Assembly: GCA_025451235.1 (NCBI GenBank)
Contig: JANWKT010000007.1
Span: 62,001-126,000 of the forward strand
From: Flavobacteriales bacterium
GTDB taxonomy: Bacteria; Bacteroidota; Bacteroidia; CAIKAF01
Direction of reading: 5' to 3'
DNA length: 64,000 nt
Of this stretch, positions 31,523 to 32,026 are shown in pieces (positions within the stretch are counted from its first letter, which is position 1; every line of letters begins with the position of its first letter). The position numbers and the translations under genes were made by a program. A model generated the notes under the pieces. The model did not search any database, had not been told where the DNA came from, and was given only the letters and a program-made list of their open reading frames with translations.

Positions 31523-31550
31523 AAAAATACGGAATAGTTCACATATGAAA

Positions 31551-31580
31551 AGACCTTACGTTTTACCGTAAGGTCTTTTA
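31551..31580. terminator. Bidirectional intrinsic terminator
   Basis: AGACCTTACG (31551-31560) pairs perfectly with CGTAAGGTCT (31567-31576), flanked by AAAA on the left and TTTT on the right. It can end the lipoprotein gene on the plus strand and the tRNA/GIY-YIG region on the minus strand. Confidence 0.85.
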
Positions 31581-31585
31581 GTTTG

Positions 31586-31638
31586 TAGCGGAGACGGGAC
31601 TTGAACCCGTGTCCGCCAAAGGCGGATATGAATCCTGT
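31586..31638 (-). pseudogene. Partial tRNA-Met copy (anticodon loop to 3' end)
   Basis: On the minus strand, ACAGGATTCATA (31638-31627) equals the anticodon loop and preceding bases of the intact tRNA-Met, and CACGGGTTCAAGTCCCGT with the 3' acceptor half (31611-31582, 30 bases including flank) is identical to the same part of that tRNA. In between, 15 bases forming a TCCGCC-TTT-GGCGGA hairpin replace the 10 bases of the 3' anticodon stem and variable loop. The 5' half (acceptor, D arm) is missing, so it cannot fold as a tRNA. The homology starts one base after the GIY-YIG stop codon. Confidence 0.85.
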
Positions 31639-31639
31639 A

Positions 31640-31897
31640 TTATACGTTACAGAGAACATTTTCCTTTATCCAATTTCTTCCAACCCCCGTTTTTAGAAAG
31701 GCTTCTCGATACATGGCCTCCTTTTTTGACGGATAAAATTCTATATGAATCATACACCAAGGGCGATACCTTGTTGTGAAACCCTTTTTCGATTTGGTAT
31801 TATGCCAATGAAACCTCTCTATGGAACAATTGCTAAAACCAACATAGGTGATCCTGCCAGAATATGAGTAGAGGATATAAACAACAAATTCTTCCAT
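31640..31897 (-). CDS. GIY-YIG nuclease domain protein inserted next to tRNA-Met
   Basis: 85 residues from ATG 31897 (an in-frame TTG lies two codons earlier). A single GIY-YIG domain: VVYILYS and ITYVGFS form the GIY/YIG strands. An Arg in SIERFHWHN, and a Glu in KEAMYREAFLK, occupy the usual catalytic positions. The length fits stand-alone GIY-YIG/UhbA-like proteins. It lies between an intact tRNA-Met and a partial tRNA-Met copy, all on the minus strand, and its stop abuts the partial copy. That arrangement suggests a homing-type or tRNA-targeted element rather than a repair nuclease. Confidence 0.85.
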   Translation of the reverse strand: MEEFVVYILYSYSGRITYVGFSNCSIERFHWHNTKSKKGFTTRYRPWCMIHIEFYPSKKEAMYREAFLKTGVGRNWIKENVLCNV

Positions 31898-31908
31898 TCC
31901 CAAAAATA

Positions 31909-31939
31909 AAAAAGCCTTTCCAACTGGAAAGGCTTTTTG
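31909..31939 (-). terminator. Intrinsic terminator of tRNA-Met
   Basis: AAAGCCTTTCC (31911-31921) and GGAAAGGCTTT (31926-31936) form a perfect 11-bp stem with a 4-base loop; the minus-strand transcript ends in a U-run. It sits immediately after the tRNA 3' end and before the GIY-YIG start. Confidence 0.85.
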
Positions 31940-32013
31940 TAGCGGAGACGGGACTTGAACCCGTGGCCTCAGGGTTATGAATCCTGTGCTCTAACCAGCT
32001 GAGCTACCCCGCC
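31940..32013 (-). tRNA. tRNA-Met (anticodon CAT)
   Basis: 74 bases without an encoded CCA. The acceptor arm GGCGGGG pairs with CTCCGCT, the D arm is GCTCAGCTGGTTAGAGC, the anticodon stem-loop is CAGGATTCATAACCCTG with CAT at its centre, and the T arm is CGGGTTCAAGTCCCG. It resembles the elongator methionine tRNA of Bacteroidota; a tRNA-Ile with modified CAT is less likely. A TATATTTG -7 box lies at 32027-32034. Confidence 0.95.
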
Positions 32014-32026
32014 AATTTTGGGAGTG

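Follow-up and report, generated by a model that had tools for sequence, protein, structure and literature searches.

A tRNA-Met gene in the window, the 64,000-nucleotide stretch of Flavobacteriales DNA analyzed here, stands beside a small GIY-YIG nuclease ORF and a partial, hairpin-interrupted copy of the same tRNA gene. With a probability of roughly 0.7, we read this locus as a ~370-bp unit of a chromosomal selfish element of tRNA genes, of a minimal, free-standing homing-endonuclease type resembling SegB. Read cyclically, the unit would comprise a tRNA 3' part, the element's terminator, the GIY-YIG ORF, the 5' arm of a tRNA anticodon stem and a hairpin. The GIY-YIG protein would break DNA in or near a tRNA gene, and the tRNA-derived flanks would guide the recombination or copying that installs the unit, much as for free-standing homing endonucleases. 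One tRNA copy would be spared, so that the host is not killed; the hairpin may block re-cutting of the leftover copy, or its expression or recombination as a tRNA; and the units can be repeated in tandem. This mobile element of ~370 bases is widespread in Bacteroidota and apparently undescribed before: a full-text literature search returned no description of it, with preprints and most subscription journals outside its scope, and an earlier description is possible.

The tRNA-Met locus of the window

The first-pass annotation had described an intact tRNA-Met, a terminator, an 85-residue GIY-YIG ORF and a partial tRNA-Met in this order on one strand, and ARAGORN, Pfam and the pairing of the hairpin arms confirmed it (Table 1). 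Every element lies on the minus strand. The 12-base and 30-base identities reported on either side of the 15-nt hairpin also held, with the small correction that homology to the tRNA ends at 31585, so that the partial copy spans 31638-31585; it starts one base past the stop codon of the ORF. The intact tRNA-Met is uninterrupted and the ORF, which has its own start and stop, lies between the two tRNA copies and hence not in an intron or intein. An upstream TTG would lengthen the product from 85 to 87 residues. By analogy with the empty and filled Flavobacterium sites described below, the terminator that follows the intact tRNA is probably an element-borne trailer, and the second terminator would be the host gene's own trailer, pushed downstream when the unit came in.

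Table 1. Parts of the tRNA-Met locus, in window coordinates
Feature	Position	Strand	Basis
tRNA-Met (CAT, elongator-type anticodon arm), intact; putative occupied target	31939..32013	-	ARAGORN
Terminator hairpin 3' of intact tRNA-Met	31909..31938	-	14-bp arms, 100% complementary
Stand-alone GIY-YIG nuclease ORF, 85 aa from ATG	31640..31897	-	PF01541 E = 1e-12
Partial tRNA-Met, 5' segment (anticodon 5' arm and loop to A37)	31627..31638	-	12 nt identical to intact tRNA
15-nt hairpin TCCGCCTTTGGCGGA (TCCGCC-TTT-GGCGGA), replacing tRNA positions ~38-48	31612..31626	-	
Partial tRNA-Met, 3' segment (T-arm, acceptor 3' strand, 3 trailer bases)	31582..31611	-	30 nt identical
Second terminator, behind partial tRNA-Met	31541..31586	-	

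The layout is far beyond chance, as is evident from its recurrence across the phylum, from the hairpin pattern, which occurs eight times in the window's genome (a control pattern does not occur), and from a twin at tRNA-Asp. The latter locus, L003, holds a second of the eight PF01541 matches of the genome and consists of an intact tRNA-Asp, a terminator, the ORF and then GAATACATGCCTGTCA + TCCCGGCTGAGCCGGGA + CGGGTTCGAGCCCCGTCCCGACCGCCA; its breakpoint is the same as that of the window's partial copy, one base past the anticodon. A third tRNA-linked GIY-YIG ORF in this genome, of the Leu/Arg lineage, lies 76 nt upstream of a tRNA(CAT) in a locus cut by the contig end (L004, G000:C21:1-1712). 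The same-genus genome G001 carries the element within an inverted block; the tRNA-ORF-partial block at 31541-32014 of the window is inverted relative to positions 2383-2844 of L039, which is from the same genus and has the same neighbouring genes.

The ORF scores 48.7 bits against PF01541, for which the curated cut-off is 22.6, and thus belongs to the superfamily; among the libraries of named families, NCBIfam and PADLOC gave no match. Residues Y7, G20, R28, H32 and E65 are invariant in 25 relatives. An AlphaFold model (pLDDT 85) has a GIY-YIG-like fold whose nearest solved structures, at modest E-values, are SLX1 and UPF0213, with the catalytic domain of I-TevI ranking well below both. The 85-residue protein has no separate DNA-binding domain. 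Across 54 Flavobacterium pairs the median dN/dS of the ORF is 0.076, and a ratio near 0.08 indicates that, as judged from codon changes, the ORF is under purifying selection and has presumably retained its function.

Recurrence and layouts across Bacteroidota

Loci were collected by a protein search of 149 relatives, by a scan of genome contigs (41 loci) and by adding 39 distant matches chosen without sight of tRNAs; a separate sample of the phylum was drawn with an Asn-lineage ORF as query, and all sets were run through one procedure. Counting a few loci that were sampled twice, 115 of 143 Bacteroidota loci have a tRNA gene no more than 620 nt from the small GIY-YIG ORF; the two lie on the same strand in all 115, and a partial copy of the same tRNA is found nearby in 99. 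The first set contributed 89 tRNA-linked loci out of 113 (same strand, 89/89; partial copy, 76) and the phylum sample 26 out of 30 (same strand, 26/26; partial copies, 23; hairpin gaps, 24/30). The sets are not phylogenetically independent, with Flavobacterium over-represented and a few loci, such as L128/L209, present in two of them. A perfect stem of at least 5 bp occurs in 70 of 75 internal gaps of the partial copies in the first set, against 11.4% of random segments of the same length, and in 94 of 105 gaps after pooling (random segments, ~11%). A few GIY-YIG loci of the tRNA-linked clades have no recognizable partial copy. The first-pass annotation had made its idea of mobility depend on such a linkage of GIY-YIG ORFs to intact and partial tRNAs in other Bacteroidota, and most of the sampled genomes have it. 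The phage records and viral contigs that were searched contained no match to the ORF, and hence not the phage location known for SegB; a plasmid search returned a single weak match, in Azospirillum.

Two layouts are seen. In Type A, to which the window's locus belongs, the intact tRNA precedes the ORF and the broken 3' part follows it. Type B is the mirror image: a broken 5' part precedes the ORF and the intact tRNA follows; this type comprises loci at tRNA-Arg (L030, L031, L125), Leu (L142, L154), Asn (L037) and Ser (L131). At the last of these (G148:C88), several different hairpins in succession break the tRNA-Ser copy. The cut near the anticodon loop supposed in the first-pass annotation is hypothetical, and the position of the hairpin follows the lineage: approximately 38-48 for Met and Asp, 26-35 for Asn and the anticodon stem for Val and Ala, while in the Arg lineage it is a pure insertion at 22/23. 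The duplicated tRNA segments begin and end at positions that differ between lineages, and a target-site duplication of fixed length was rejected on this ground.

The hairpin had been taken provisionally for a scar of repair or targeting. A one-off repair scar does not fit a component that recurs, is conserved within lineages and undergoes double changes that keep its pairing. Among 25 distinct Met-lineage hairpins, six base pairs are kept with almost no exceptions even though pair 5 appears as CG, TA, GC or AT and pair 2 as CG or TA, so that it is the pairing, not the sequence, that is conserved. Nor is the hairpin, as a full account, merely a common genomic repeat: all ten occurrences of its core in the G120 genome fall inside one tandem array of the element, and Flavobacterium genomes contain few.

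Insertion at tRNA genes and choice of target

A search of 150 Flavobacterium genomes for the elongator tRNA-Met locus gave a match in 146. This orthologous site is filled in L058, L046 and L049 and empty in close relatives, a presence/absence polymorphism at a defined position. The filled site of L058 contains 372 extra bases, while 473-483 of 500 upstream bases are identical to those of its relatives. Downstream of the partial copy, L058 matches the sequence that lies 3' of the tRNA in the empty sites of L091, L094 and L095 (90/101, 93/100 and 92/100, respectively); the sequence 3' of its intact tRNA has no such match (about 64/118). The filled sites thus hold ~372 nt within the tRNA 3' end, the intact tRNA being followed by the element's own terminator. 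As far as such alignments can show it, a unit was inserted into the 3' end of the tRNA gene and the host terminator was displaced behind the broken copy. The length of the insert agrees with the period of Flavobacterium arrays (about 369-370), and its content is the GIY-YIG ORF alone, with no tyrosine or serine recombinase. A scan of the other 29 fetched Flavobacterium sites for the hairpin and the GIY motif revealed none; the trailers of L096, L101 and L106, read by eye, are element-like, and these three look like deletion remnants. In the family of the window's genome, G008 and G010 have a tRNA-Met by the same START-domain gene and no element. Neither these nor the Flavobacterium empty sites carry a partial copy; had they done so, the first-pass proposal, in which a mobile element targets tRNA genes and leaves their 3' part in duplicate, would have failed. 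The proposal is supported by the filled and empty sites together with the tRNA linkage.

Amplification is most evident at L137 (G120:C9:904500-912500), where ten tandem units of 457 bp stand behind one intact initiator tRNA-Met and seven of eight unit comparisons gave 457/457 identity. The comparison of its units shows tandem amplification with one intact tRNA preserved.

Mapping of isoacceptor labels onto the ORF tree required 13 changes, compared with a mean of 31.6 after shuffling (80 rows), and 21 compared with 50.1 on a larger tree (105 rows). In none of 200 shuffles was the number as low as observed; the trees rest on fewer than 80 columns, so that their deep forks are weak, and the Ser and Ala labels do not cluster in them. 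Within the Met lineage, the initiator/elongator label needs about nine changes, at least three of which are forced by well-supported branches. The partial copy switched along with the element and matches the tRNA of its site, initiator or elongator. In Flavobacterium the same element terminator stands 5' of the ORF at initiator sites, at elongator sites and between the units of arrays. These trees show ORF lineages that are to all appearances isoacceptor-specific, with a Met lineage that has switched between initiator and elongator targets. Insertion through one simple crossover with a foreign circle was rejected: it fits the displaced host trailer but not the local-type flanks after a switch. 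Since both flanks of the hairpin match the tRNA of the site, gene conversion at a later stage, or some other way of copying, would be needed. A related GIY-YIG clade without tRNA linkage (L001, L002, L005, L138, L144, L153) serves as a natural negative control and indicates that linkage to a tRNA is not automatic for GIY-YIG ORFs.

Several of these results bear on a reading in which unequal crossing-over or slippage duplicates tRNA regions, the ORF is a passenger that by chance sits within the duplicated block, and the hairpins are dispersed, independent palindromes that gather in dead tRNA copies. We consider it unlikely, because at filled sites a foreign terminator and the ORF arrive jointly inside the tRNA end, one element terminator is found at different tRNA genes, ORF clades match isoacceptors, the control clade does without tRNAs, and the ORF is apparently held by purifying selection; in its favour are the tandem arrays, the hairpins within other repeats and the hairpin-bearing tRNA copies that have no ORF (the tRNA-Cys copies of L084, and L023). 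Still less probable is a system acting on RNA, with the protein a tRNA-specific ribonuclease of the anticodon-nuclease toxin kind and the hairpin-bearing fragment its decoy or antitoxin RNA. Isoacceptor specificity, the usual disruption of the anticodon arm by the hairpin and the compensatory changes that maintain its pairing would all suit such a system, but Type A fragments lack the tRNA 5' half and hence a tRNA fold, the footprint is that of a DNA insertion with existing empty sites, the nearest structures are those of DNA nucleases (SLX1) and UPF0213 proteins, and PADLOC gave no match. That the locus is the remnant of an integrase-type element with a tRNA attachment site, its GIY-YIG ORF being surviving cargo, is very improbable despite a tRNA 3'-end direct repeat resembling attL/attR, because the 372-nt insert is too small for an integrase and the same content recurs throughout the phylum, the hairpin interrupts the repeat, Type B duplicates the tRNA 5' part, and a search for the ORF found nothing in phages or viral contigs and a single weak match in plasmids.

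Related systems

The selfish-element reading has its closest precedent in SegB of T-even phages, a free-standing GIY-YIG homing endonuclease reported to cut DNA within tRNA genes (PMC13096335; Brok-Volchanskaya 2008 cited there). That paper also reports tandem amplification of a tRNA+segB unit via homologous recombination, with microhomology between the ends of the tRNA and nuclease genes, and no preference of SegB for tRNA isotypes (PMC13096335). SegB and the element share a free-standing GIY-YIG enzyme beside tRNA genes and tandem units of tRNA and nuclease. SegB is phage-borne, whereas the Bacteroidota elements are chromosomal, mostly about 80-90 aa in their protein, and isoacceptor-specific; they also carry hairpin-bearing tRNA remnants, whereas the available text on SegB describes no hairpin-interrupted partial tRNA copies.

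I-TevI and the intron-encoded GIY-YIG homing endonucleases have the catalytic fold in common with the element and, we propose, the principle of selfish spread by targeted cuts. The element differs from them in having neither an intron nor a separate DNA-binding domain. By sequence profile and fold, the best matches to the ORF are UPF0213/YhbQ-like proteins, UPF0213 being of similar size, and SLX1. These are host genes, SLX1 being a structure-specific nuclease of branched DNA, and we know of no reported link of either to tRNA genes or to hairpin-bearing tRNA copies. Integrative elements that target tRNA genes duplicate the tRNA 3' end and keep a functional tRNA, as the element does; in contrast to them, the element measures ~370 bp, has no integrase, bears a hairpin in the duplicate and occurs in the mirrored Type B layout.

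To our knowledge, the mobile DNAs that use tRNA genes as their classic docking sites carry integrases. For the element, a nuclease of ~80 residues seems to be enough without one, in lineages for Met, Asn, Val, Leu, Asp, Gly and other tRNAs. In a wider form, for which we see about even odds, such minimal selfish elements, with units of about 350-460 bp, would extend through the phylum as lineages of ~80-aa nucleases, each dedicated to one isoacceptor. They would spread by breaking tRNA genes and duplicating them anew, always sparing one functional copy; the element-borne hairpin would confer immunity to re-cutting, and hairpin copies without an ORF would be non-autonomous derivatives. If true, this would account for many small GIY-YIG ORFs and many of the degenerate copies of tRNA genes seen in Bacteroidota, and would provide a natural set of tiny nucleases with diversified targets, useful for the study of tRNA-gene recognition.

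The element also brings the origin of GC-hairpin insertions within reach of direct tests. REP/RAYT and the GC-hairpin elements of mitochondria are short GC-rich palindromes with a link to a small nuclease-type gene or apparent mobility. In contrast to REP/RAYT, the hairpins of the element lie within tRNA-derived copies and their partner is a GIY-YIG protein rather than a tyrosine transposase. A process of its own may be responsible for the hairpin, given its presence in ORF-less tRNA-Cys copies and in other dispersed repeats; the latter indicate that hairpin insertion is not confined to tRNA copies. The tRNA-Cys copies (L084, G000:C20:227602-227661) repeat the 5' part of the gene as two 46-bp units in tandem, each with a TCCGCCAAGGCGGA hairpin in place of the D-arm; an intact tRNA-Cys follows directly downstream and no GIY-YIG ORF is present. 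This locus is possibly a non-autonomous derivative. Elsewhere in the window's genome, the same short GC hairpin is found within an arm of further palindromic repeats that are dispersed (L081, L082, L083, L086, L087), for example in two cases in the CAAGAAGCAAGAACCAAGA family. A GIY-YIG ORF of the clade without tRNA linkage (L001, G000:C25:24625-24843) has REP-like palindromes of the TCCCAGCTGTAGCTGGGA type on both sides, hinting at a different association with hairpins.
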